The position numbers and the translations under genes were made by a program. 64,000 nt of DNA from Rothia sp. P100 (GTDB taxonomy: Bacteria; Actinomycetota; Actinomycetes; Actinomycetales; Micrococcaceae). The DNA is taken from NCBI RefSeq assembly GCF_023712425.1, contig NZ_JAMAYG010000001.1:434001-498000 (forward strand). Reading direction: 5' to 3'. Each line of letters begins with the position of its first letter. Within the stretch, counting starts at the first letter, position 1. Shown here one piece after another: positions 3,757-15,116 of the stretch. A model generated the notes under the pieces. That model saw only the letters and a program-made list of their open reading frames with translations. It made no database searches and was not told where the DNA came from.

Positions 3757-5319
3757 TTAGGCAGTAATTGCCGCTGGTTCAACTTTCAGGTGAGCTAGTA
3801 GGGGATCATCTCTCATTTCGTCTACAGGCAGGTTCATCGCCGTTGCAAGAATATCTGCAAGACGACGAGCATCAGACAGATTCTGTTCATCGCTAATCCA
3901 CCGGTCAAAATCCACCTGGAAATTCTGCTTCTTGGTGATGATGTGTAGCTGCGGATCACGAGGTTTGCTTTCATCCAAGCGAACATAGCGTATATCCGTC
4001 AGAGGGTATAACTCTCCTACCGTTCCCTTTTTACGAAGGTCACCATAGCTGACAATGAAGAAGTCAGTTTCCGTGATACCAAAGTAAGAATTAGTTAGTC
4101 CTTGATTAACATCTGCGAAAGCGAGCAGCCGAGCATCTGAAGGTAGAGCCCATTTCAGAATATCGTAGAGAGACGTTTCTACCTCCTGCTTGAAGACAGT
4201 AAAGTCAGGTGCAGGCTGAGCAGGCTCCCGATAAATATCGTCACCAAGTGCGGCAACAGCCTTGGCCAGCGTAGCCGCTATATCAGCTGATTCCAGCTTA
4301 CGGCGCCTCTTACCGAAGGGAAGTCGAGCCGACCCACCCTCTGGAGTCAGCGCTTTAACCAGATTGAGCTGTTGGACAAGAGTGCTCAATAGCTTTTCAA
4401 GCTTCTGACGAGCCTCTTTGTACTCCCTCTCAGTTGATTCCAAGATCGTTTCAAGTAGAGCCGTAGAATTCTCATCTAAGCTGATATGAGCTGTACGAAG
4501 CACGTTCCAGCGATGCCTGGTCCATTCAGCCAAAAGTAGACCATTTGCATCGTTAAGAATGGACTGCTCATTCGATTGAATGTAAGTGCGCTGTTCTTCA
4601 GGCCCCACTTCTAGAGCTGAAACATGTTTTTGCACATTATTGGTAAAGAGTTCGCGGCTCTTGATAATCTCGGCTTCTTTACTCTGAATGGGAGCAAAGA
4701 CCAGACTGGATACAGAACCGATAGCCCGGGCTTCATCGAGTGCTTTAGATACAACTGCATCCAAGGAAATTAAGGTTGCCCAACGGTCTTCTTGGGTTGC
4801 CTGACGAATCTCGTTGATAGCCTGGCGGGTGAGTGCCAGATTTTCATCGAGTTTACGGTTTACACTTGCGACCTGCTGGGCAACTGCAGCCAGGGCAAGA
4901 GTCGGTAGCATCCCCGGGCCTGTCAGCGTGGCTAATGTTTGCGGTGAAAGCTTAGTCCATTGCATGGAAGCACCGATGGAGCTGCCCTTCATCAGGGATC
5001 CATAGTTCACTAGACCATTGGTCATGGGTTTCATGGTCTGCATATCAGCGATAGTTTTAGGAGTGAGCTGAATTAGCCCCTGCAACGCAGAGTCCGTCTT
5101 GATGAACTGGCTCCCCACACTACCGACGTTTAGCGCAACGGATAGCCCATCAGTAATCCGGTTACTCGCTTCTTGACTGAGCAAGTCGAAGGACATGGTC
5201 TCCAGGCCAGACACAGGCTCTTTGGAGTAAAGCGCGGCAACGCCAGGTCGCAGCTCAATGAGAGCGATTTCTGCCGCCTCTTTGGCGCTTTCACCTTGTT
5301 TGATATTTTCTTCTGACAT
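3757..5319 (-). CDS. Uncharacterised 520-residue protein with coiled coil and possible PH-like C-terminal domain
   Basis: I do not recognise this protein. The N-terminal 130 residues are low-charge, with repeated Gly/Ser/Thr and Met. A hydrophobic stretch follows near residue 140 (GPGMLPTLALAAVAQQVASV), then a long helical, probably coiled-coil region (NRKLDENLALTRQAINEIRQ onward; EREYKEARQKLEKLLSTLVQ). A basic linker GKRRRKLES precedes a C-terminal region of about 130 residues with strand-rich text (NSYFGITETDFFIVSYGD, LYPLTDIRYVRLDE), reminiscent of bacterial PH-like domains. ATG at 5319 is preferred over GTG at 5322. It lies just outside the ychF island, has its own terminator and forms a single-gene unit. 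A membrane-remodelling or conflict role is possible but unproven. Confidence 0.7.
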   Translation of the reverse strand: MSEENIKQGESAKEAAEIALIELRPGVAALYSKEPVSGLETMSFDLLSQEASNRITDGLSVALNVGSVGSQFIKTDSALQGLIQLTPKTIADMQTMKPMTNGLVNYGSLMKGSSIGASMQWTKLSPQTLATLTGPGMLPTLALAAVAQQVASVNRKLDENLALTRQAINEIRQATQEDRWATLISLDAVVSKALDEARAIGSVSSLVFAPIQSKEAEIIKSRELFTNNVQKHVSALEVGPEEQRTYIQSNEQSILNDANGLLLAEWTRHRWNVLRTAHISLDENSTALLETILESTEREYKEARQKLEKLLSTLVQQLNLVKALTPEGGSARLPFGKRRRKLESADIAATLAKAVAALGDDIYREPAQPAPDFTVFKQEVETSLYDILKWALPSDARLLAFADVNQGLTNSYFGITETDFFIVSYGDLRKKGTVGELYPLTDIRYVRLDESKPRDPQLHIITKKQNFQVDFDRWISDEQNLSDARRLADILATAMNLPVDEMRDDPLLAHLKVEPAAITA

Positions 5320-5475
5320 CACTGTTCTTTCTTTGACGTGGTCTACGTCATTATTTTTCTTTTCCAGAATACAACTCAGTTACGCATGAGTAACTTGTTA
5401 GTGAGAAGTTTCAGCTTTGTTTTCTTCTCATACCATGCCTTGTAAATTTCGCGAGTTGAAGAAACCGGTAACAGA

Positions 5476-5509
5476 AAAGCTCTGCCTCTCAGTTGAGAGA
5501 CAGAGCTTT
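5476..5509 (-). terminator. Hairpin just beyond the outer ychF-end repeat, probably the original ychF terminator
   Basis: AAAGCTCTGCCTCTCA pairs with the GAGAGACAGAGCTTT arm, with one bulge. It begins 33 nt beyond the stop codon in the first ychF-end copy (5542) on the strand in which ychF is read. No other minus-strand gene ends here, so the simplest reading is that this hairpin once ended ychF and was separated from it by the island. Confidence 0.7.
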
Positions 5510-5541
5510 AGTGACAGTTCTACCGGCTAGTTACCAGTCGC

Positions 5542-5562
5542 CTAGACGTTGAAGCGGAACTC
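5542..5562 (-). repeat. ychF 3'-end repeat, copy 1 (outer left end of island)
   Basis: The + strand reads CTAGACGTTGAAGCGGAA then CTC. Read on the minus strand it encodes GDVVEFRFNV-stop, the same C-terminus as genuine YchF (DGDVVEFRFNV-stop). Similarity to copy 2 continues to about 5585 (CATACCAACCT versus CAGACCAACCT). It marks the presumed far end of the island. Confidence 0.9.
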
Positions 5563-5649
5563 TACCACGTCGCCGCACATACCAACCTGTGACGATGGGA
5601 TCGTTGTGAGCCGTTGCCACAGGTCAGGACCCGCGGAAGAGAACCCGAC

Positions 5650-7615
5650 CTAGCTCGGATCGTCCTCGGAAAACAGCCCCTCCAGCAGCACGTCTGCGTG
5701 ATGCTCGCGCAGGTACCGCTTGACGTCGATGGGGGAGGCATCGTGCTGCAATCCACGCTTGTAGTAGAGCAAGCGCTGGTCCGCGAATTCGAGGATCTCC
5801 GACCAGCGACGTACCCAGAACCTGTAGCGTAGCGGGGAGTTCGGGTCGAGCTCAGACTCGTCGAGCAACCCCGACTCACGGCCACGCTGGTTGATGTCGC
5901 GCCGCACATCGTTGTTGTAGTCGTTCACGACCAGGACGAAGTCCCAGACAGTGTGGGTGCCGGCAAATTGCGGTTCCTCGACGATCGCGCGCATAGCCCT
6001 TGATCTGGTTAGCCTCTTTGTACGACGCAACCACGGATGGGGCCTTCAGCTCCACGACCAGGTGCCGCTTCGTCTCGTGCTCCGGCGCAGCAAGGGAGAA
6101 CATCAGGTCCAGGCGGCCTTGGCTGCCGTCGGTCTTGGTGACCTTCGTGGTGGGCTCCCCCTCGCGGCCAAGGATGCTGAGGTGTTGCTCGAGCGCTCGA
6201 GTGAGACCGATCTCCGAGCTCATCATATTGAACTGTTCCCCGAACACCCAGCTCTCGCGCTCGAGGATCTTGTGCAGGTGGTCGCGCTCCTTGACCAGTC
6301 CCTTGGATTCGGGGCTGAAGACGATCTCGCGAAGAGCGCTCAGGAAGTCCAGGCGGTCGGTCACATCAGTAGTCGCCCGGATGAGCCTTGAAAGCGGGGT
6401 GCGCTCAAGCAACCGATCGAGCTCTTCGCTCTCGCCTTCGGTGAGCCCGATGTACTGATCCAGGAGCGCCTTCACACCGTCTGGGTTTCGCTGGAGCGTG
6501 TCCTTGAGCAGTCCGAGCGTCAGCTTCTCCTGGTCGCGCTTCTTGGGGATGTGCCGACGCACAGCGGTAGCGATGACGTCGAAGGTGGCTCGTTCGACCA
6601 CTTCTTCGTCCGAGGTCGGATCACCCTCGTACGGGTAGGCCTTGGTCGTTTTCCAGCGGTCGACGAGCTCGCGCCGCTGCTCCTCTCGGCGAGCCTCGAA
6701 ATGGTCCTCCAGCGTGGAGTCCACGACCTGCATTAGAGATCCGAGCAGGGACGTCTCCTGCTCCATATCGACGAGCAGCACCTCATTGGCGTGCTCAGTC
6801 ATGTCCTCCCAAAGGACGTACGCGGCGAAGTTGAAGTCGGCGAAGCGCCTGATCGGCGTCTCATCGACGGGAACGCCTTTCTCATCGCAGAGGTAGAGCG
6901 TCCGGCCTTTCACATGTCGCCATTCGACGACCTTCAACGCGGCTAGATGCTCGACACCGTCGTAAGACCACCTCAGCTCGTGCTTCGTCTGGCGCTCGAT
7001 GCTTGCGGCCGGGTCAATCTTGACTCCGTCGTACCGGACTTCTATCGTCGGGAAAGTCAGCAGATGCAGAGCGAGAGCGGCACCGATGCGCGGCCGCGCA
7101 GCGTCGCCCTCGAGCCGGCCAAGCGAGTCGCGACCTTCAGCCCGGAACTCCGTGTAGGTCGGTCCTTGTGCGTCAACAGGATCGGGACCGGAGAAGTCGT
7201 TACGACGGTCAATCGTCGACGACACGCTAGTCTTCTTGAACGCGCCCGCAGCATCGTGGCCAACGGTCTCCCAGGTGATGCGTGTTCCCAATGCGAAGGC
7301 GCGCAGACGCCCCTGGCCAAGCCTGCCGTGCAGAGGTCGCTTCTGACGCTCGGTGACGCGGGCCCCGACCTTCCAGGAGTTCCCCACCCACTTGAAGTCC
7401 TGCTCAACTCGTTCGGGGCTCATGCCAAGGCCGTCATCCCGGACGGTGACGCCGACAATACCATCGGCGTCATTGCGTTCGAAAGTGACCGATACCTTGT
7501 TGGCGTCAGCATCAAGGCTGTTCCAGATCAGCTCAATGATCGCTCGCACCGGGTCTTTCTCGCCGGCGAGACGCTGGACCAAGTCGTTTCCAGCGTTCAG
7601 GATGATTCTAGGCAT
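5650..7615 (-). pseudogene. GHKL ATPase fused to PD-(D/E)XK nuclease, interrupted by a frameshift
   Basis: The N-terminus is a GHKL (Hsp90/MutL/MORC-like) ATPase: N-box with E28 and N32 (AIIELIWNSLDAD), G1 box VRDDGLGMS at 58-66, and G2 box GRLGQGRLRAFALG at 97-110. A long helical middle follows. The C-terminal domain has a nuclease signature, D503 (GRLDLMF) then E522-x-K524 (VVELKAPS), followed by QIKGYA, as in Shedu/DUF4263-like PD-(D/E)XK enzymes. The frame breaks near 5990-6003, inside a GCGCGCG run. After QIKGYA the first frame runs into unrelated arginine-rich text, while the expected continuation (AIVEEPQFAGTHTVWDFVLV) lies in the frame ending at 5650; two missing bases would restore it. 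The full product would be about 650 residues. It may be inactive, phase-variable, or affected by a sequencing error. It follows the membrane protein gene after 104 nt. Confidence 0.8.
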
Positions 7616-7719
7616 GACCCCATTGTGCCAGTTAAGAGGGATGTCCCTCGCGACTTCGGCGGTACGTTGATCGGTCCACGACTCCAGGCTGCTCCAGTTC
7701 AGTCGCGAAGCGAAGAGAC

Positions 7720-8271
7720 CTACTCCAGCGGTTGGATCCGGGGATTGGACCTTGATGGCAGGTCCCAGCCGTGGCTCACGTGGATGGCCACGACCTGCTC
7801 CTCGGCGTTTGTCTGGAGTTTGGTCAGGGCGTCGGCGTCGTGGCCTGTCGATCGGAGATGGCGCAGGTTGCTGCTCAGCGCGTTCGCCCAGCTCATCAGC
7901 GGATCAAGGGTCTCCAGCCGCCGCTCAACGCTTTCGCCGGGCTTGGCTACTTCCATTACCTGCCGGCCGATGGTCGCACCCAGCATGCGCTCGGCCTCCA
8001 ACCAAGTGTCGATGCCGTCCCAGTCCTCGAGTTGATCGACGAGCGCGATCGACGTGATGCGCAGGTTTGCCAGTCGCTCCCCCACCGGCTCTGCGGTGGG
8101 GTCGAAGCCGATGAGGCGTTGCACAGCTTCTTGAACCGCGAACCAGCGTGCATCCACGGCCGCCTTGCGTGATTCGGAGAGTGCCTCGTTGGCGCGCTTG
8201 TTCGCCAAGTATGTACCCACGCCGGCGACCAACAGGGATAAAGCTGAAATCACTAGCGCGAGAATGTCCAT
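7720..8271 (-). CDS. Small membrane-anchored coiled-coil protein, candidate partner of the GHKL nuclease
   Basis: A 183-residue protein with one N-terminal transmembrane helix (ILALVISALSLLVAGVGTYL), followed at once by a charged helix (ANKRANEALSESRKAAVDAR) and further helical text containing RLIGFDPTAEP and LEDWDGIDTWL. I recognise no family. It is read in the same direction as the GHKL gene 104 nt downstream, so the two are probably one transcription unit. A membrane sensor or anchor next to a GHKL nuclease would suit a two-component defence system. Its start abuts the truncated serine recombinase remnant, and no clear Shine-Dalgarno is seen, so the start is uncertain. Confidence 0.65.
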   Translation of the reverse strand: MDILALVISALSLLVAGVGTYLANKRANEALSESRKAAVDARWFAVQEAVQRLIGFDPTAEPVGERLANLRITSIALVDQLEDWDGIDTWLEAERMLGATIGRQVMEVAKPGESVERRLETLDPLMSWANALSSNLRHLRSTGHDADALTKLQTNAEEQVVAIHVSHGWDLPSRSNPRIQPLE

Positions 8272-8305
8272 AGCTATATTGTGTCATGGCCAGCGCGGCC
8301 GTACT

Positions 8306-8728
8306 GACACGGCTGAGATCGTGGCCCTCGATCAGCTCGTTGTCGTAATCGCTCTGGGCGCACTTGATCTTCGTCTGGTGGAAGCCGATGTCGGCCTTGA
8401 TGGCCCGGAGTCGAGGCTCGTCAAGGCTGGGGATTGTGCCGATCAGATCGGGCCGGCCAAGACGCTCCCGGACCACGGCCAGCACGAAATTCTCGATCTG
8501 CCCCTTGGACTACATAATGTGCCGCTAGCAGCGGTAGCGCTGGCTATGGGCCTTGACAGGTTTCTCACAAATGCCACAGAGGAAAAGTCCGGATCCGATG
8601 TGTTTGCGCGCAGTAGACCCAGTCCGGTTGGTGATTCTGGCCGGAGCGTTGAGGCTCTCCTGAACCGTCCACCAGACGTCGGGTTCCACGAAGGGCATCC
8701 ACTGGCCCATCACAGGCTCGCCCGTTAT
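8306..8728 (-). pseudogene. Remnant of a large serine recombinase (C-terminal part)
   Basis: The minus strand encodes the recombinase segment ITGEPVMGQWMPFVEPDVWW, then TVQESLNAPARITNRTGSTA, then the zinc-ribbon SGLFLCGICEKPVKAHSQRYRC. In the same frame, after two in-frame TAG stops (8525-8527 and 8510-8512), comes the typical C-terminal coiled-coil region FVLAVVRERLGRPDLIG...AQSDYDNELIEGHDLSRV. The catalytic resolvase domain and most of the recombinase domain are missing upstream of about 8730, and the extreme C-terminus is lost near 8306. It is the only integrase trace inside the island and probably marks how cassette A or an ancestor moved. Confidence 0.85.
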
Positions 8729-8783
8729 CTATTTGATAGCCCGTTATACGTTTATGTATTTCGGTCCACGAAATCCTAGGCAT

Positions 8784-9283
8784 GAATCATGCGAACGAAG
8801 TTACTACAGGAATAATGAAAGATACTCCAACGCCTTGACCTTTGCTTCTGAGAAAATCCGAATTTTGAATACCGCAGAATCAATTTTTAAAACAATGGAG
8901 TACAGGCCAACGTTTCCTGAAGGCTTCCCGCATCTGGCCAACGTAGTGGCATTCATCAGTAGGTTCGTCGACCAGTACACCACCTCCAGCAATCCGACAT
9001 CGGGTTCCACCCCGTCAAAGGCCTCGACGCCAGCGTCGCGGAGAAACCCTCCATCCTTTAGACACTGTCCGCCCCTGTACAACAAGAATCAACGAATCCA
9101 GGCCGACCGTCGAAAACTAACGGTCTAACTAACGGCCACCATAGTCACCGTAGCATCACTTGAATTAAAGAATCTGCGCAAACGTCGTCCGTTAAAGTGC
9201 GCTTAAGTCCTGATTAGTCGGGGAAAGTAAAATCATGAAAGGCTCCCAATAGACCATCAAAGCTTTACACCACAGGAGACAAC
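8784..9283. other. 500-bp gap between recombinase remnant and Mrr-like gene
   Basis: The stretch is AT-richer than the GHKL side. A 93-codon minus-strand frame (8804-9085) is present but matches no family I know and has no good start signal. It may be more recombinase debris. The last 60 nt hold the promoter region and an AGGAG Shine-Dalgarno of the Mrr-like gene. No RNA gene was recognised. Confidence 0.5.
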
Positions 9284-10201
9284 GTGGAACTCGATTTTGC
9301 AGGGTTAAAATCTGGCACGAAATTTGAGCAGCTCATACGCGACATCCTGATAACCCTGGGTTACCCTATCCGTTGGAGCGGTGTCGGCCCGGACGATGGG
9401 AAAGACCTCATCGCCAGCGAGCCCGGTCGCGAAATATTTGGCGGAAAACCACGTCAGTGGCTCATCTCTTGCAAGAACTTTGCTGACAGCAAAAAATCCG
9501 TTAGCTACTCAGACTTAACAGAGTCAGGTGACATAGCAGCACTCGTTGACACTCACAGAGTCGACGGATTCCTCATCGCATGCACCACACAAGTGAGCGC
9601 ATCCTGTACGCGACATTTGGAGGCCCTTGAAACGAATAAGAGAATCCCAATCACAGTCTGGGACTCGGCGACATTACTTCGGCTTGCTGCCAATCCTCGT
9701 ATCTATGCTTTGCTCCAGGAGTATCTGCCCACCACCGTCGGACTCAATGGCCTTAGGGTATACAGAACGACTGCACCGAACGAGTTTGTGATAACTGGTT
9801 TCGGATTTTACTTGCACGTGCATGAACGTCATGAGGGTGACCTGTCCTTCCAACTCGATTCGGTGAAGGACTATCTATTACGCCTCGACACGCTTCAGAA
9901 GTATTACGATACTGATCATGTACTTATCCGGCCACGATCGGTCTTCTACGACAACAAACACGGAACAGCTTCATACACAACCGAAGTCCTTATACACACT
10001 GGCACGTGGAATCCACCTTCGGTACCCGTGGATGCAACCGAGATCGTGAGGAGCATTACATCCGAACTCGACAATCCGACGTCGACCGCTTCTAAATACT
10101 ACGACGGACAAGCGTCCCATCATGAAGTAAGAACTAGGGACGTTGATTTCCACCGCGACTCGTTCCACAAAGATCACTATCAGTATTACCGCGGCAACTG
10201 A
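9284..10201 (+). CDS. Mrr-like restriction endonuclease family protein
   Basis: A 305-residue protein whose first 130 residues fit the Mrr-type PD-(D/E)XK fold: helix with E15 (TKFEQLIRDIL), strand LGYPIRWSGVGPDDGKDLIA with D41, then WLISCKNF with K64. The residue two before the lysine, normally Glu or Gln, is Ser62, so activity is not certain. Residues 85-135 continue the fold (DGFLIACTTQVSASCTRHLE). The C-terminal 150 residues are unfamiliar and end in His/Tyr-rich text. GTG start with AGGAG 7 nt upstream. It is the only gene of the island read against ychF and stands alone, with no methyltransferase nearby, as expected for a modification-dependent or abortive nuclease rather than a classical R-M pair. 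Confidence 0.7.
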   Translation: MELDFAGLKSGTKFEQLIRDILITLGYPIRWSGVGPDDGKDLIASEPGREIFGGKPRQWLISCKNFADSKKSVSYSDLTESGDIAALVDTHRVDGFLIACTTQVSASCTRHLEALETNKRIPITVWDSATLLRLAANPRIYALLQEYLPTTVGLNGLRVYRTTAPNEFVITGFGFYLHVHERHEGDLSFQLDSVKDYLLRLDTLQKYYDTDHVLIRPRSVFYDNKHGTASYTTEVLIHTGTWNPPSVPVDATEIVRSITSELDNPTSTASKYYDGQASHHEVRTRDVDFHRDSFHKDHYQYYRGN

Positions 10202-10305
10202 CTGGAATAACACCTCGCGAAGCTGGTTAAAAACGGATCGTATTAACAAGCAAATAGCCGTTCGACCACCCGTTATTTTCGCGGTCGCTCTCATGCTTGA
10301 ATGAC

Positions 10306-10343
10306 GCAAACGCCGGATCCCAGCGATTGGATCCGGCGCTTGC
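10306..10343. terminator. Hairpin next to ychF-end copy 2
   Basis: GCAAACGCCGGATCC pairs with GGATCCGGCGCTTGC (one mismatch, 8-nt loop). It lies about 100 nt after the Mrr-like gene on the + strand, and 23 nt beyond copy 2 when read in the ychF direction. It may terminate both convergent units, and it mirrors the hairpin beyond copy 1. Confidence 0.75.
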
Positions 10344-10365
10344 GAATGGTCAAAACGGCACGGGA

Positions 10366-10386
10366 CTAGACGTTGAAGCGGAACTC
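10366..10386 (-). repeat. ychF 3'-end repeat, copy 2
   Basis: The core is identical to copy 1 over 21 bases (CTAGACGTTGAAGCGGAA then CTC). On the minus strand it reads RNPVEFRFNV-stop. It separates cassettes A and B and lies 85 nt after the stop of the RloC-like gene. Confidence 0.9.
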
Positions 10387-10470
10387 CACCGGGTTCCGTC
10401 ACAGACCAACCTCTAGCCGCCACCGACGAGCGAGACTCGACGCAAGCGCAAATCATGGCTGCGGGGCCGA

Positions 10471-12744
10471 TCATAAAGCAGCGGGCACCGCGGCTACCGA
10501 GGTACGCGGCAGAAGATGCTTGCGCGCTTCATCCATCATCATTTCGTAGTGACCAATATGAGCGCCACCAGAGTTTTTCTCGAATACCCGAGCGAACGCT
10601 GCCAGCCATCGGCCGTTCGTCGCGACAGGTTGGGTGTAGGTTTCCGCATCCATGATCGTATGAGAACCGCTGTGAGACCACGCGATCAACGCATCGTGGA
10701 ATGCGCGTTCATTGATCGAGAGGTCCTCTCCGAGTTCATAGAGATTCCTCTTACCACCAAGAGTCGTGAAGTAACTCTCAAGGATTCGCCGAAGCACGTT
10801 AGGGAGCCACGGCATACTTCCTTCGGGTCGGACCTCAGCGGCGGCCACCTCGTCCCATAGCTCTTGGTACGCCGTTCGAATTGGGTTCCTCTGCCCACAG
10901 TCCTCTACTTGATTGGGGTCCGGAGAGAATTTCCTGATGCGATAGAACTTTACCGCGGGCGACAGCTCACCTTGATGTTCATAGCAGACTTCATTATGGA
11001 AACGGCTGTTATGCGTGAGCAGGATCATCTGGCTTACACGGGAATGCGCGTCACTCCTGACCTCTTTGACTAACCTCCGAGTCAGCGCCGAGACCACAAA
11101 CATGATGTCGCCGTCGAGGCTTGAAATGGGATCATCTATGACAGCGGTTATCCTCTCTGTCTCGCCGTCTTGGCGGACGCCGGACAGTGAGTGGTAGAAG
11201 TAGAGGAACGTGATGAAGGTTCGTTCACCCTCACTTAGGGTCTGAATATCAGCGGGTTGGCCGTTGTCGCGAATGATCCGATAACCATCTGACTTGCTCA
11301 ATGCCACCTCAAGTCTAAAACTGTGGAACTGACTCAGCGCGAGCAAATCGTTGATCTCTTGTATTGTCCGGGCACTTGAGGTTATTTCCTTCCTCAAGTC
11401 ACGCAACTCGTGCTCAACTCCGGCAAGTCGCTCCCGCTGCTTACTCATGGCGTCTTTGACGCCATCAATTGACTTCTTTTTCCGCTCGCTTTTCTGATTG
11501 AATCCTTCAATGAGGTCGTTCAGGTGCCCACGCGCAAACTCTTGCCACGCTGCGTCAACAATGATGCTGCGTTGCTCGCGACGATCCGCAACGATCGCGT
11601 TTGTCGTCTTGACCATTTCGTTTGCTGAAGAAATAAGTTTTTCGAGTAAGTCATAGTCAGTTTTTATCGTGTTAGTCATGATCTTCTCGGATGACTTGAC
11701 CACCTTCTGCTGGATGGCCTTCCCGACACCATCTATGGCGAGTTCCAATGCGCGGAATACTTGGGCAGGATCCTCTATGGGAACCAGCGCCTTGAGTCGA
11801 TCAAGGTGAGTAGTCTTGTATTCCTTCAGCTCCAAAGCCGCGTTGCTCAGGGTCATCTGAAATTCAAGAACTTCATCACGTTTATCTTGGTATGTAGCGT
11901 CAAAGATGCTCGCGAGTTCTTCCGCCAAGTCCTTCGGTACCGACCGTTGACAGAACGGACAGAGTTTCTCTGCGTTTTCCCCCTTGTGGAGGTGCTCCAA
12001 TCCTTCTCGCACCCAGTCCGAGTTGGAAAGACGTTCAACTAGATCAGCGAGCGGCACATCCGCGCTACCCACAATCGGGGTCATCAGCACCGCCTGAACT
12101 GCCGCTTCGTCCCATTCGAGCTTCGGCGCGGGTGGCAGGAGCGAGGACTCCAAGATCGTCTCATCAAACGCAGTCTTCGCTTTGGCTTCAAGGGTGACGA
12201 AGGTGTCCGTTCCGCGTTCTGGATGGGTCTGCGCAGCCGCGAGAACCTTGTCCAAGCACCCCTCTTTGCTACCTTTGATGCCTGGCATCTTGTCCTTGAG
12301 CGCCACCGGAATGACAGCACGGCGTTCCCATGCTGTCTGAGCAAGAGCGGAGCGTTCGGCATTAAGCTGATTAAGAAACCTGCCGAGCGTCTCCTGTTGT
12401 TGTGCAAGCTTATTGTTGATCTTCTTCTGCTCGTCTTCTAGCGCGCCAATGCGCTGGAAGGTCTCGCGGCTGTCGTCACCCAACAAGAAGACCCCAGGCT
12501 CTTCACCGTCAGCGCTGGTAAATGAAGCGCGAACATAACTTCGGTTATAGACCTTGACGCTGTTCGAATGCTGCTGCCAGCTGACAGAAGAGCTGCTGAC
12601 GGGGTCGTACGAAGCCAGGTACTGACTGATCGTGGTCTTGCCGGAGCCGTTGGGACCGAAAATATAGTTGATTTGGCTGAGTCCGGGGAGCATTGCTTCT
12701 GCCCCAAAGCAAGGGAGCCCTGCCAGTCTGACTTCGGTGATCAC
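10471..12744 (-). CDS. RloC/PrrC-like AAA ATPase with zinc-hook motif (candidate anticodon nuclease)
   Basis: A 757-residue SMC-like ATPase of the AAA_13 type. Walker A GPNGSGKTT at 30-38; coiled coil interrupted by a CPFC motif at 262-265 and more coiled coil to about 465; signature LSEGE at 503-507; Walker B VIDDPISSLD at 535-544; H-loop THNSRF near 577. CxxC in a coiled coil is the zinc-hook trait of RloC. The C-terminal region has R652/R653, E656 (LPNVLRRILESYF) and H691/H695 (WSHSGSH), a spacing close to the Arg-Glu-His triad of the PrrC/RloC tRNA anticodon nucleases, although related AAA_13 proteins share parts of it. GTG start with GAGGAGG upstream. Sole gene of cassette B, with no hsd genes beside it. 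Probable abortive-infection effector. Confidence 0.75.
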   Translation of the reverse strand: MITEVRLAGLPCFGAEAMLPGLSQINYIFGPNGSGKTTISQYLASYDPVSSSSVSWQQHSNSVKVYNRSYVRASFTSADGEEPGVFLLGDDSRETFQRIGALEDEQKKINNKLAQQQETLGRFLNQLNAERSALAQTAWERRAVIPVALKDKMPGIKGSKEGCLDKVLAAAQTHPERGTDTFVTLEAKAKTAFDETILESSLLPPAPKLEWDEAAVQAVLMTPIVGSADVPLADLVERLSNSDWVREGLEHLHKGENAEKLCPFCQRSVPKDLAEELASIFDATYQDKRDEVLEFQMTLSNAALELKEYKTTHLDRLKALVPIEDPAQVFRALELAIDGVGKAIQQKVVKSSEKIMTNTIKTDYDLLEKLISSANEMVKTTNAIVADRREQRSIIVDAAWQEFARGHLNDLIEGFNQKSERKKKSIDGVKDAMSKQRERLAGVEHELRDLRKEITSSARTIQEINDLLALSQFHSFRLEVALSKSDGYRIIRDNGQPADIQTLSEGERTFITFLYFYHSLSGVRQDGETERITAVIDDPISSLDGDIMFVVSALTRRLVKEVRSDAHSRVSQMILLTHNSRFHNEVCYEHQGELSPAVKFYRIRKFSPDPNQVEDCGQRNPIRTAYQELWDEVAAAEVRPEGSMPWLPNVLRRILESYFTTLGGKRNLYELGEDLSINERAFHDALIAWSHSGSHTIMDAETYTQPVATNGRWLAAFARVFEKNSGGAHIGHYEMMMDEARKHLLPRTSVAAVPAAL

Positions 12745-12845
12745 GGTGTCCTCCTCGACTCCGATCAGTAGTCTTACACTAATTCTGAATAGTTATTCCG
12801 TCCAGCAAGTTGTCATTGGACGCGGATCTTTAAAATCCCAGCTTC

Positions 12846-12866
12846 CTACACGTTGAAGCGGAATTC
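12846..12866 (-). repeat. ychF 3'-end repeat, copy 3
   Basis: CTACACGTTGAAGCGGAA then TTC, encoding RRNAVEFRFNV-stop on the minus strand. It shares TTCCTACACGTTGAAGCGGA with the true ychF end, and its flank ACCGCGTTTCG resembles copy 2 (ACCGGGTTCCG). It separates cassettes B and C. Confidence 0.88.
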
Positions 12867-12941
12867 GACCGCGTTTCGCCGCTTACGACCATCTGACGTA
12901 AATGCTCACCGCCATCTTGGCACTCACCAGATCCACCGAAT

Positions 12942-13856
12942 CTAGAAATCCAGACCGAGGTCGATGCTAATCCATCGCTTGATCTCACGATTGATCGAAG
13001 CATCAATATCGAAGATGTCAAACTCCTTGTACAGACGGTGGACCACGTCTGAGGGGACCCGCGGCAAACGTTTCTCCTTTAAGAGCAACGTTCGCTTACC
13101 TCGGCCCATTAGATAGCCGAGTTCCAGCGACACATTAGGGTTGAAGTCGCGCTGCTCGATGTCCTCAAACACCGCGATGCCGTACTGACAGCCGGTTAAG
13201 TACACCTCGATATTGGACCACAGCTCCCCGGTATAGTCCCTGTCGTCAGCTCGCACAGCAGTCATCCCCAACTCTGCGAGCGCGGCCTTAACCGACTCGT
13301 AGATCTGGTTCATCTGTAAAGTGTCGGCGAAGCGCATCATGACGAAAACATTGCGGCTCGGCTCTGGGTGGTCTTCTAGAAAGCGGCGGAGGTCGCTTTC
13401 AAGGTGTCGAACATGGCTGATATCACCGAGCTTGCCGAGCGTATTCATGGTCTCCATTTCGTGTGCGTGCTCTGCCGCGACTCGCCGCACGACGCCAGAC
13501 TGCTGCGGGCTGCCGGGGAGCGGCAACGAAACCACCGCCGCAACCGGCCAACCCTGTTGGTTCTGGAGTAGGTCGGCCATAGCTGAGAGCGGATAACGGT
13601 CGTTCGGGCGGTCCAGCCAACTGACCTGCGGCATACCTGTGGCCGGACTAATCCCAACCAAGATTTGCGAATTGTCGCGTACGGCAATGAACGAGAACTG
13701 TCGATAAAACGGGGAGGCATGAGGTGGCAGCCCGCGAGAAGCCAATTCGTCCTTCAAAGCGTCGCCGAACTCATCGACGACCACTCGGCAGATCTCCTGT
13801 TCCGGTTCCGGTAGCTCGTTTCTGCCCATGAATGCGCTCGGCCAGTTCAACCCCAT
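12942..13856 (-). CDS. Candidate defence effector with C-terminal TIR/deoxyribosyltransferase-like domain
   Basis: This 304-residue protein is the only gene of cassette C. Residues 168-280 form a nucleotide-processing fold of the TIR/nucleoside-deoxyribosyltransferase type: first strand NVFVMMRF (169-176), helix DTLQMNQIYESVKAALAELG, ELWSNI (211-216), GCQYGIAVFEDIE, the family motif NPNVSLELGYLMGRGK (239-254) with E245 as the likely catalytic acid, then a final TLLLKE strand. Residues 1-165 are an unrecognised sensor-like region (FYRQFSFIAVRDNSQILVGI). Such domains in bacterial conflict proteins cleave NAD+ or bind nucleotide signals; whether this one does is inference. ATG start with AAAGGA about 7 nt upstream. 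Confidence 0.68.
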   Translation of the reverse strand: MGLNWPSAFMGRNELPEPEQEICRVVVDEFGDALKDELASRGLPPHASPFYRQFSFIAVRDNSQILVGISPATGMPQVSWLDRPNDRYPLSAMADLLQNQQGWPVAAVVSLPLPGSPQQSGVVRRVAAEHAHEMETMNTLGKLGDISHVRHLESDLRRFLEDHPEPSRNVFVMMRFADTLQMNQIYESVKAALAELGMTAVRADDRDYTGELWSNIEVYLTGCQYGIAVFEDIEQRDFNPNVSLELGYLMGRGKRTLLLKEKRLPRVPSDVVHRLYKEFDIFDIDASINREIKRWISIDLGLDF

Positions 13857-14030
13857 GGTGATTCCTTTCGTACGAGAGCAGGTCTATTTAGATCTTAGCC
13901 GCCGACAACGACAGATGCGCGCGGACGCGCGGAAGGCATATCTGGACCTGCTGCCAGACGTTATATCGGAACGCTCGACCCCTTTGGCCGCAGGAACCCA
14001 AGCATCAAAGCCCCTGATCAGACTGATTTC

Positions 14031-14051
14031 CTACACGTTGAAGCGGAACTC
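14031..14051 (-). repeat. ychF 3'-end repeat, copy 4 (functional gene end, island boundary)
   Basis: These are the last seven codons of ychF including the TAG stop. They match the three other copies, so they are the presumed attachment core at the ychF-proximal end of the island. Confidence 0.9.
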
Positions 14052-15116
14052 CACTACATCGCCGTCCTGCATGACATAGTCCTTACCTTCGATACGGACC
14101 CTGCCCTTAGCCTTCGCCTCAGCCATGGAGCCGGTGGCGTCTAGATCTTCAAAAGAAACAACCTCAGCCTTGATGAAGCCGCGCTCGAAGTCAGTGTGGA
14201 TAACACCGGCAGCCTGGGGCGCGGTGTCGCCCTTGGAGATAGTCCAGGCGCGGGTTTCCTTGGGGCCGGCGGTCAGGTAGGTCTGCAGACCCAGGGTGGA
14301 GAAGCCAACGCGAGCCAGCTTGTCCAGACCAGACTCGTCCTGGCCGCTCATCTCTAGCATTTCGCGTGCTTCTTCTTCGTCCAGCTCCACCATGTCAGCC
14401 TCAAGCTTGGCGTCCAGGAACACAGCCTCAGCGGGAGCAACCATATCGCGCAGAGCCTGCTGCTTCTCTTCAGAGGCGAGCACGCCATCGTCCGCGTTGA
14501 AAACAAAGATAAAGGGCTTAGCGGTCAGCAGGTTCAGCTCCTTGAGCAGAGCCATATCGATTTTTGCTTCCTCAGCCTTAGAAATTAGGGTGTCGCCCTG
14601 CTCCAAGATAGCCTGAGCCTTCTTGTATTCCTCAAGCTGAGCAGCATCGCCCTTCTTGATTTTCACTGCCTTCTCCAGGCGGGGAATAGCGTTTTCCAGG
14701 GTCTGCAGGTCAGCCAGCACCAGCTCGGTGTTAATGGTTTCCATGTCAGAAGCGGGGTCAACCTTGCCGTCCACGTGAATGACGTCCGGATCATCAAAAG
14801 CACGCACTACCTGAGCGATAGCGTGAGCCTCGCGGATGTTTGCCAGGAACTGGTTGCCCAGACCTTCACCCTCGGATGCACCGCGCACGATGCCCGCGAT
14901 ATCAACGAAGGAAACGGTTGCGGGCAGAATGCGCTCGGAGCCAAAAATCTCTGCCAGACGAGCCAAGCGTTCATCGGGCAGGCTGACGACGCCCACGTTG
15001 GGTTCGATGGTAGCGAAGGGGTAGTTGGCTGCCAGAATGTTGTTCTTGGTCAGTGCGTTGAAGAGGGTTGACTTGCCGACGTTGGGCAGACCCACGATGC
15101 CAATTGTTAGAGCCAC
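14031..15116 (-). CDS. ychF: Redox-regulated ATPase YchF (Obg/TRAFAC family)
   Basis: A 361-residue ribosome-associated ATPase of the Obg family with ATP preference. G1 is GLPNVGKST near residue 9. The switch region DIAGIVRGASEGEGLGNQFL, the FNADDG segment in the position of NKxD, and the C-terminal TGS domain ending AKGRVRIEGKDYVMQDGDVVEFRFNV are complete. GTG start. The gene is intact because the island insertion restored its last codons. The transcript has lost its presumed terminator (now at 5476-5509) and could read through into cassette C, whose gene begins 174 nt downstream in the same direction. Confidence 0.97.
   Translation of the reverse strand: MALTIGIVGLPNVGKSTLFNALTKNNILAANYPFATIEPNVGVVSLPDERLARLAEIFGSERILPATVSFVDIAGIVRGASEGEGLGNQFLANIREAHAIAQVVRAFDDPDVIHVDGKVDPASDMETINTELVLADLQTLENAIPRLEKAVKIKKGDAAQLEEYKKAQAILEQGDTLISKAEEAKIDMALLKELNLLTAKPFIFVFNADDGVLASEEKQQALRDMVAPAEAVFLDAKLEADMVELDEEEAREMLEMSGQDESGLDKLARVGFSTLGLQTYLTAGPKETRAWTISKGDTAPQAAGVIHTDFERGFIKAEVVSFEDLDATGSMAEAKAKGRVRIEGKDYVMQDGDVVEFRFNV

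Follow-up and report, generated by a model that had tools for sequence, protein, structure and literature searches.

How did three different gene sets come to lie in tandem at the 3' end of ychF in Rothia sp. P100, with a copy of that gene end at each border? The window, meaning the whole stretch of DNA analyzed here, comprises 64,000 nucleotides of contig NZ_JAMAYG010000001.1 (positions 434,001 to 498,000), and ychF, which encodes the YchF GTPase, lies within it on the minus strand. A reading made from the letters of the window alone (the sequence-only reading) had proposed a modular cassette array that uses this gene end as its docking site, and comparison with 395 genomes of the same family supports that proposal. 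We observe arrays with a common site anatomy, occupied and unoccupied sites, units that are common to several genera, and large serine recombinase (LSR) genes linked to ychF. We consider it probable that the array consists of mobile cassettes docked at the ychF 3' end, and that an LSR joins circular cassettes, which would carry a P half-site joined to a B' half-site (P-B'), to the gene end (B-B').

The gene-end pattern CTASACGTTGAAGCGGAA matches the window exactly at 5542, 10366, 12846 and 14031, all on one strand, which confirms that four direct copies of the ychF 3' end split the region from 5.5 to 14.05 kb into three units. With up to three mismatches allowed, the mean expected number of matches is 0.14, and none of 100 shuffled sequences attained four. 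We also scored the 64 kb with a 49-bp weight matrix derived from 161 sites, none of them in the window. After the four copies, whose scores are given in the lines below, the next best score was -16.5, and the best among three shuffles was -16.8. The real ychF end scores lower than the other copies because its upstream arm is coding sequence.

5542-5565, minus strand: core of the distal P-B' site, with its P arm at 5566-5590 (matrix score 60.7); an inverted repeat follows, as judged by eye.
5566-10365, no strand assigned: cassette C, 4824 bp core to core, decayed, with a frameshifted GHKL gene, a 183-aa gene, an LSR relic and an Mrr-like gene.
10366-10389, minus strand: core of the P-B' site between cassettes B and C, with its P arm at 10390-10414 (matrix score 69.6).
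10390-12845, minus strand: cassette B, 2480 bp core to core, with one ATPase gene.
12846-12869, minus strand: core of the P-B' site between cassettes A and B, with its P arm at 12870-12894 (matrix score 53.3).
12870-14030, minus strand: cassette A, 1185 bp core to core, with one TIR-like gene.
14031-14054, minus strand: gene-end core 1, the real ychF end (matrix score 43.1).
14031-15116, minus strand: ychF (Pfam PF06071 YchF-GTPase_C, 132 bits); its last 24 bp form the B' side of the B-B' site.

Elsewhere in this genome, the CTASACGTTGAAGCGGAA pattern finds matches only with two or three mismatches, and a variant of the gene end with an AGR arginine codon finds none. Chance as the source of the repeats was rejected on the shuffle and matrix results together with a reversed-pattern control, which gave no match in the 395 family genomes for either coding of the gene end.

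The gene-end core is 24 bp long and encodes VEFRFNV followed by the stop codon; the sequence-only reading had given 21 bp. The docking site is larger than this core, and the three outer copies of the window carry a further 25-bp arm that is not ychF sequence. Ninety-nine copies give the consensus AGAGGTTG.Tc.GTGCCGGAACGTG / GTGGAGTTCCGCTTCAACGTCTAG for arm and core. Our site sample comprised 239 copies from 98 loci, of which 75 are at ychF ends and 164 are secondary; the latter include a few true ychF pieces (G004, G014, G329; G-numbers denote genomes) and leave out copies that start with ATGGAG (G006, G012). The outer motif AGAGGTTG stands at -25 (at least 5 of 8 positions) in 127/164 secondary copies and 1/75 ychF ends, and CGGAAC stands at -9 (at least 5 of 6 positions) in 101/164 and 0/75, respectively. 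Among 152 distinct arms, 93 have an AGAGG that begins at -25, one mismatch being allowed. The B'-side motif CGTCT begins at +17 in 178 of the 217 distinct 30-base stretches compared, a position that is largely fixed by the gene and the search pattern. The two halves mirror each other about a central GT, AGAGG-N11-CGGAAC on the left and GTTCCG-N6-CGTCT on the right; the GT is common to the sites but is fixed by the search pattern and a valine codon. The right-hand motif thus lies 5 bp nearer the center than the left (+17 against -25), in a half that is constrained by gene and pattern, and this is the spacing of B half-sites in LSR systems. A published account gives attP half-sites as 25 bp and the motif for the zinc domain as displaced 5 bp inward in attB (PMC3783163). 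Because the 5-bp shift matches this difference, we read each secondary copy as a P half-site followed by B', and the ychF end as a B-B' site. Two side observations concern doubled cores: two gene-end cores lie 23 bp apart at G386:C19:36033-36079, as if around an empty cassette or in a nested site, and unit starts in G087, G106, G125, G205 and G256 show a second, imperfect core (GTTCCGCTTCAAC.TCT-like) about 23 bp past the first.

The sequence-only reading had proposed to look in relatives for empty sites, precise junctions and other cassette sets, and the outcome is mostly in its favor. Cassettes A and B occur in the same order in G087, which belongs to a genus other than that of the window's genome (G000). 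The match covers 3,704 bp at 98.8% DNA identity (98.1% for cassette A and 99.2% for cassette B) and is bounded by the repeat cores; the P arm at 10390-10414 is identical in G087, and identity on the right-hand side stops at the core. The two YchF proteins are 72% identical, the flanks differ, and the compared pieces have only ychF and the cores in common besides the 3.7 kb. In many genomes other units occupy the same place, and several genomes have such units in common as blocks, in other combinations. On the right, the sequence of shared units changes over at the first position of the core that varies, and left edges are less clean (72 right-edge and 144 left-edge pairs, non-independent, with duplicates dropped; crude filtering of right-edge ychF copies left some ychF ends among them, and the pattern fixes most core columns).

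A single copy was found at the ychF sites of G005, G015, G017, G028 and G030. Together with G018 and G019, these five belong to a tight group of genomes in which ychF DNA is 94-97% identical, with G020 apart. G018 and G019 carry a unit of 553 bp, whose only gene encodes a nucleotidyltransferase, or of 814 bp, in which a HepT-like gene is added, and the CCTCCAAA flank that follows these units also follows ychF in four of the five single-copy genomes. The clearest pair of empty and occupied sites, G017 against G018/G019, is evidence of insertion at the gene end but does not display a P-B' site. Many cassettes from several genera (G057, G190, G238, G269, G277 and others) open with a conserved stretch of up to ~600 bp (CGTTATTGACG...GATCAGATCGTTCGG).

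Gene-end copies are widespread. At least one copy with CGN coding of the arginine codon is present in 316 of the 395 family genomes, and the AGR-coded form is present in 114. Two or more CGN copies were found in 76 genomes, and two or more copies of either coding in 124, with 168 AGR copies in total; these three counts were compiled by hand, and a few genomes have copies on different contigs or strands. When 54 of the 124 multi-copy genomes were looked up again, they spanned 18 genera. The pattern of arm and core together occurs in 84 stretches in named genomes, including Arthrobacter, Kocuria, Nesterenkonia, Brevibacterium, Demequina, Microbacterium and Acidipropionibacterium, genera of several families. 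ychF itself was matched in 34 of 35 congener genomes, own genome included. Among the 80 loci L221-L300, none has copies on both strands, ychF lies within the piece in 27 and an LSR in two. Plasmids contained no near match to 5400-14100 of the window, and viral contigs gave no match to two site patterns, one of which was one base out of register.

Of 73 ychF genes with the canonical end, 21 encode the last arginine by AGR, compared to 0 of 510 codons at seven other invariant arginines, and some secondary copies that have a P arm are AGR-coded too. Strong folding is predicted for the 70 nt that begin with the stop codon, both after ychF (mean z -3.1, n = 71) and after secondary copies (mean z -2.8, n = 160), compared to a mean z of -0.06 (n = 238) in a control 300 bp further on. 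Therefore, the cassette seems to bring its own gene-end codons and often a terminator-like hairpin. We would guess that AGR coding protects against re-insertion.

Which enzyme could act on these sites? The sequence-only reading had suggested a search for a recombinase whose neighborhood carries the core, and an LSR family indeed often lies near ychF or one of its copies. Within 5 kb of ychF, G001, G008 and G021 encode proteins of 510-516 aa that have Resolvase and Recombinase domains. Relatives at E 1e-40 occur in 30 of the 395 family genomes, counting partial ones and the relic in the window. Fourteen of 18 full-length LSRs (at least 50% identity) share a contig with ychF or a copy at ~23 kb or nearer; the other four are at contig ends, on a small contig, or in surroundings that were left out. 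The family matches the TP901-1 and phiC31 enzymes by sequence. The window itself holds only a dead LSR, which is 49% identical to the G021 enzyme (E 1.2e-50) and 79% identical in DNA over 395 bp to a stretch inside the G240 LSR gene.

Ten loci have a different ychF C-terminus, EFR-SGLTSGGKK or similar (G007, G008, G009, G010, G021, G029, G048, G138, G208 and G240). An LSR or an N-terminal LSR fragment lies near ychF in eight of them; G010 and G029 have no LSR near ychF. All ten alternative ends encode a mirror-image P' half-site, with 16-21 of 25 positions equal to a cassette arm; none of 500 shuffles each was as good, and other registers gave 13-16 positions. CCTCT stands at +22 in eight of the ten. 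These loci look like ordinary LSR insertions, in which ychF would end in B-P'. In G008 and G009, canonical-end copies lie ~48 and ~54 kb from ychF. At the protein level, the alternative YchF C-termini are altered and mostly end in lysine.

We think that the cassettes were probably placed by a shared recombination enzyme, and we infer that this enzyme is an LSR, that it acts on a circular form, and that events follow the order given here. Each cassette would consist of a gene-end copy (B', the last seven codons and the stop), often a hairpin, the cargo and, typically, a 25-bp P arm. Its circle would carry P joined to B', and the LSR would recombine it with the chromosomal B-B' gene end at the central GT. 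The integrated cassette would then have a restored ychF end on one side and, on the other, a P-B' site containing the displaced old end; on this reading, the distal core at 5542-5565 is a displaced, older ychF end. ychF would stay whole and the docking site would remain, allowing further cassettes to stack. The enzyme would be supplied in trans by LSR-bearing elements at the same locus, or formerly by ones like the relic in cassette C.

Several observations weigh against this mechanism. Phage LSRs are reported to recombine attP with attB and no other pairings (PMC3783163), and a pairing of B-B' with P-B' would be non-standard, though a paper on enterococcal cassette chromosomes describes a similar layout (PMC6222049). 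Thirty-seven of the 164 secondary copies do not reach the threshold for the arm. Judged by eye, these include arms displaced by 1-3 bp or of another subtype, three simple fragments of ychF (G004, G014, G329) and copies that fit none of these descriptions. The G001 LSR starts 49 bp past a canonical, AGR-coded ychF end rather than a B-P' end, and G016, whose 813-bp unit is the same as in the G018/G019 comparison, has a different flank after its distal copy. Further difficulties are those expected if cassettes spread mainly by homologous recombination, for example after transformation, between ychF and a shared flank or core, with the repeats as old recombinase scars. The left edges are untidy: identity between G000 and G087 begins inside the core (TTCCGCTTC vs TTTAGATTT), the rest of the cassette being nearly identical, and this block switches while the neighboring sequence stays. 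The distal copies of G016, G018 and G019 are preceded by a ychF-like arm (CAGGACGG.GACGTG) instead of P. Most array genomes lack the LSR family, given its presence in 30 of 395. Finally, some arrays contain longer ychF 3' pieces, of ~200 bp at locus L047 (G014), ~400 bp at L090 (G004) and ~315 bp at L170 (G213), which point to homologous recombination. Such recombination clearly has some part at the locus. As the main route we consider it unlikely: it does not account well for 3.7 kb at 98.8% identity in genomes whose YchF proteins are 72% identical and which share nothing else except ychF and the cores, for a non-coding 25-bp arm conserved across genera, or for right edges that switch at the first variable core position.

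Two other explanations fare worse. The copies lie near ychF, almost always on one strand, and a few arrays contain the longer pieces just described, as if the gene end had been duplicated locally inside one ordinary island whose segments are the units. Yet the ychF body is single-copy in all 34 array genomes checked, 127 of 164 secondary copies carry the arm, which is not ychF sequence and which ychF ends lack, and relatives have the units in other combinations, a finding at odds with a single insertion. We therefore reject local duplication, which the sequence-only reading had named as a possible refutation, as the main cause, and consider it very improbable. A tyrosine recombinase or an integron-type system could also build such an array, since a tandem row of small recombinase-less cassettes behind a gene is reminiscent of integrons and tRNA-end islands. 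This seems very unlikely to us: the Pfam families listed for 130 open reading frames (ORFs) from the units include no Phage_integrase, and both the spacing of the half-sites and the presence of an LSR family nearby agree with a serine recombinase. Integration of P-B' circles by an LSR remains the reading that we prefer.

The cassettes of this genome probably hold virus-defense genes, which are as follows together with the other genes of the three units.

12942-13856, minus strand: TIR-like gene, 304 aa, with a weak match to the CAP12-PCTIR TIR domain (21.6 bits, below the Pfam cut-off of 24.7).
10471-12744, minus strand: ATPase gene, 757 aa, AAA_13 / PDC-S06 family (AAA_13 416.5 bits; PDC-S06 581.6 bits).
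9284-10201, plus strand: Mrr-like restriction endonuclease gene, 305 aa (Mrr_cat 32.2 bits, cut-off 21).
8297-8740, minus strand: dead LSR, residues 287-434 of 514, with three internal TAG codons.
7720-8271, minus strand: ORF for a 183-aa protein.
5876-7615, with the C-terminal frame at 5650-6030, minus strand: GHKL ATPase gene, frameshifted near 6000 (HATPase_c_3 57.6 bits).

A PDB search with the TIR-like protein at E 0.1 gave no match. The N-terminus of the GHKL protein resembles BbrUII/HgiDII restriction enzymes (NF050001, 54.2 bits, which does not reach the cut-off of 550). The 183-aa protein had no Pfam match above cut-off, no PADLOC match at 0.1 and no NCBIfam match at 0.001. The sequence-only reading had assigned a different conflict-type gene set to each unit; the evidence for a TIR domain is weak, a frameshift interrupts the GHKL gene, and the cargo is mixed across the family. 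Its statement that units lack a recombinase of their own fails for cassette C, with its dead LSR. The main minus-strand genes end ~72, 81 and 84 nt short of a core, where the sequence-only reading gave 80-110 nt for each main gene, and the Mrr-like gene runs in the opposite orientation. Just past the distal site, at 3757-5322 on the minus strand, lies a gene for a 521-aa protein without a Pfam match, whose relatives among the genus loci were found only in G004, G020 and G028, near ychF; it may be an older insert with a lost outer site.

Across 70 loci we delimited 141 units with a median length of 1.9 kb, 127 of them no longer than 5 kb. In the genus, units between copies encode an ApeA-like HEPN protein (G012/G013), a nucleotidyltransferase/HepT pair (G016), a type II methyltransferase (G014) and a PDC-S46 ATPase (G011), and these copy-bounded units match known or candidate defense families. 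PD-Lambda-3 B (G010) and AbiV (G009) are encoded near ychF, but not between two copies that we found. For the family, we sampled 130 non-redundant ORFs from units of at most 5 kb, in groups A1 (44), A2 (43) and A3 (43). In A1 and A3 (87 ORFs), nine PADLOC models in each group matched at E 1e-15, each matching one member, and some of these models belong to one family and may match the same protein. The Pfam matches listed for the 130 ORFs (25 of 32, 33 and 41 families) include transporters, oxidoreductases, hydrolases and regulators, and no recombinase. Cargo genes lie in both orientations. A defense-only label fits the window and the annotated genus units, and was rejected for the family on its mixed cargo and few strong PADLOC matches.

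If cassettes dock at ychF as proposed, one address in many actinobacterial genomes would provide a readable record of cassette gain with defined borders, and a route to new compact defense systems and other cargo, each small unit being a candidate. The locus would also offer a natural set of P, B and P-B' sites for testing whether a serine integrase accepts hybrids, and an example from nature of an integration target whose codons have been changed synonymously. More tentatively, and with greater doubt than confidence, we suggest a serine-recombinase counterpart of the integron, distributed among many actinobacteria: a fixed site at the ychF end, recombinase-less cassettes shuffled between genera by LSRs acting in trans, and CGN-to-AGR recoding that gives the docking site immunity while leaving the protein unchanged. 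As part of that joint proposal, synonymous arginine recoding would change which recombinase can use the site.

In integrons proper, cassettes of one or two genes, with no recombinase of their own, stand next to a fixed site. The ychF cargo differs in lying in both orientations and between serine-type sites; no integron integrase was among the Pfam families listed for the 130 unit ORFs, and attC sites were not searched for. At fda in Streptococcus, cis-mobilizable elements (CIMEs) without a recombinase accrete with integrative and conjugative elements (ICEs) in tandem at the gene 3' end, flanked by attachment sites and served by a tyrosine integrase. The ychF units are smaller, and canonical loci have B-B' at the ychF side, not attL. 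Displaced gene-end fragments also mark stacked insertions in tycheposons and other tRNA-end islands, which have tRNA targets and tyrosine recombinases.

Searches limited to open-licence papers listed none that mentions cassettes at ychF in its title or the opening of its abstract, and the papers among them that place an integration site near ychF concern pneumococcal prophages. Those prophages and their satellites use the ychF neighborhood (PMC8637289, PMC10383233), but their site is intergenic and upstream of ychF, is occupied by single prophages and has an unrelated att sequence. Phage-type LSR integrases (LI/A118, TP901-1, phiC31) have in common with the ychF loci the Resolvase and Recombinase domains, 25-bp half-sites, the 5-bp shift and, at ychF, B-P' ends. 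The cassettes differ in carrying P-B', not P-P', and no enzyme.

The closest likeness is to the cassette chromosomes of staphylococci (SCC) and enterococci (ECC). The ECC paper describes elements that use an LSR and the 3' end of a gene as docking site, with direct repeats of ~50 bp; inverted repeats are present in their distal and circular sites, and 16 of the 32 ECCs have two or more distal sites (PMC6222049). Likewise, gene-end direct repeats bound the units of the window, and the inverted repeat stands at its three outer copies and not at the gene; in relatives the same distinction holds for 127/164 secondary copies against 1/75 ychF ends, with exceptions such as G016, G018 and G019. The docking gene here is ychF rather than rlmH, and two LSRs of the family score 52-64 bits against CcrB (cut-off 900), 31-33 against CcrA (700) and 27-43 against CcrC (900). 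Because neither the gene nor the ccr type agrees, we do not file the ychF array as SCC. Mostly small units without a recognizable recombinase, found in many actinobacterial genera, set it further apart. By analogy, the ychF array would work as SCC and ECC do, although its docking gene and its LSR family are different and most of its units are small and show no recognizable recombinase.

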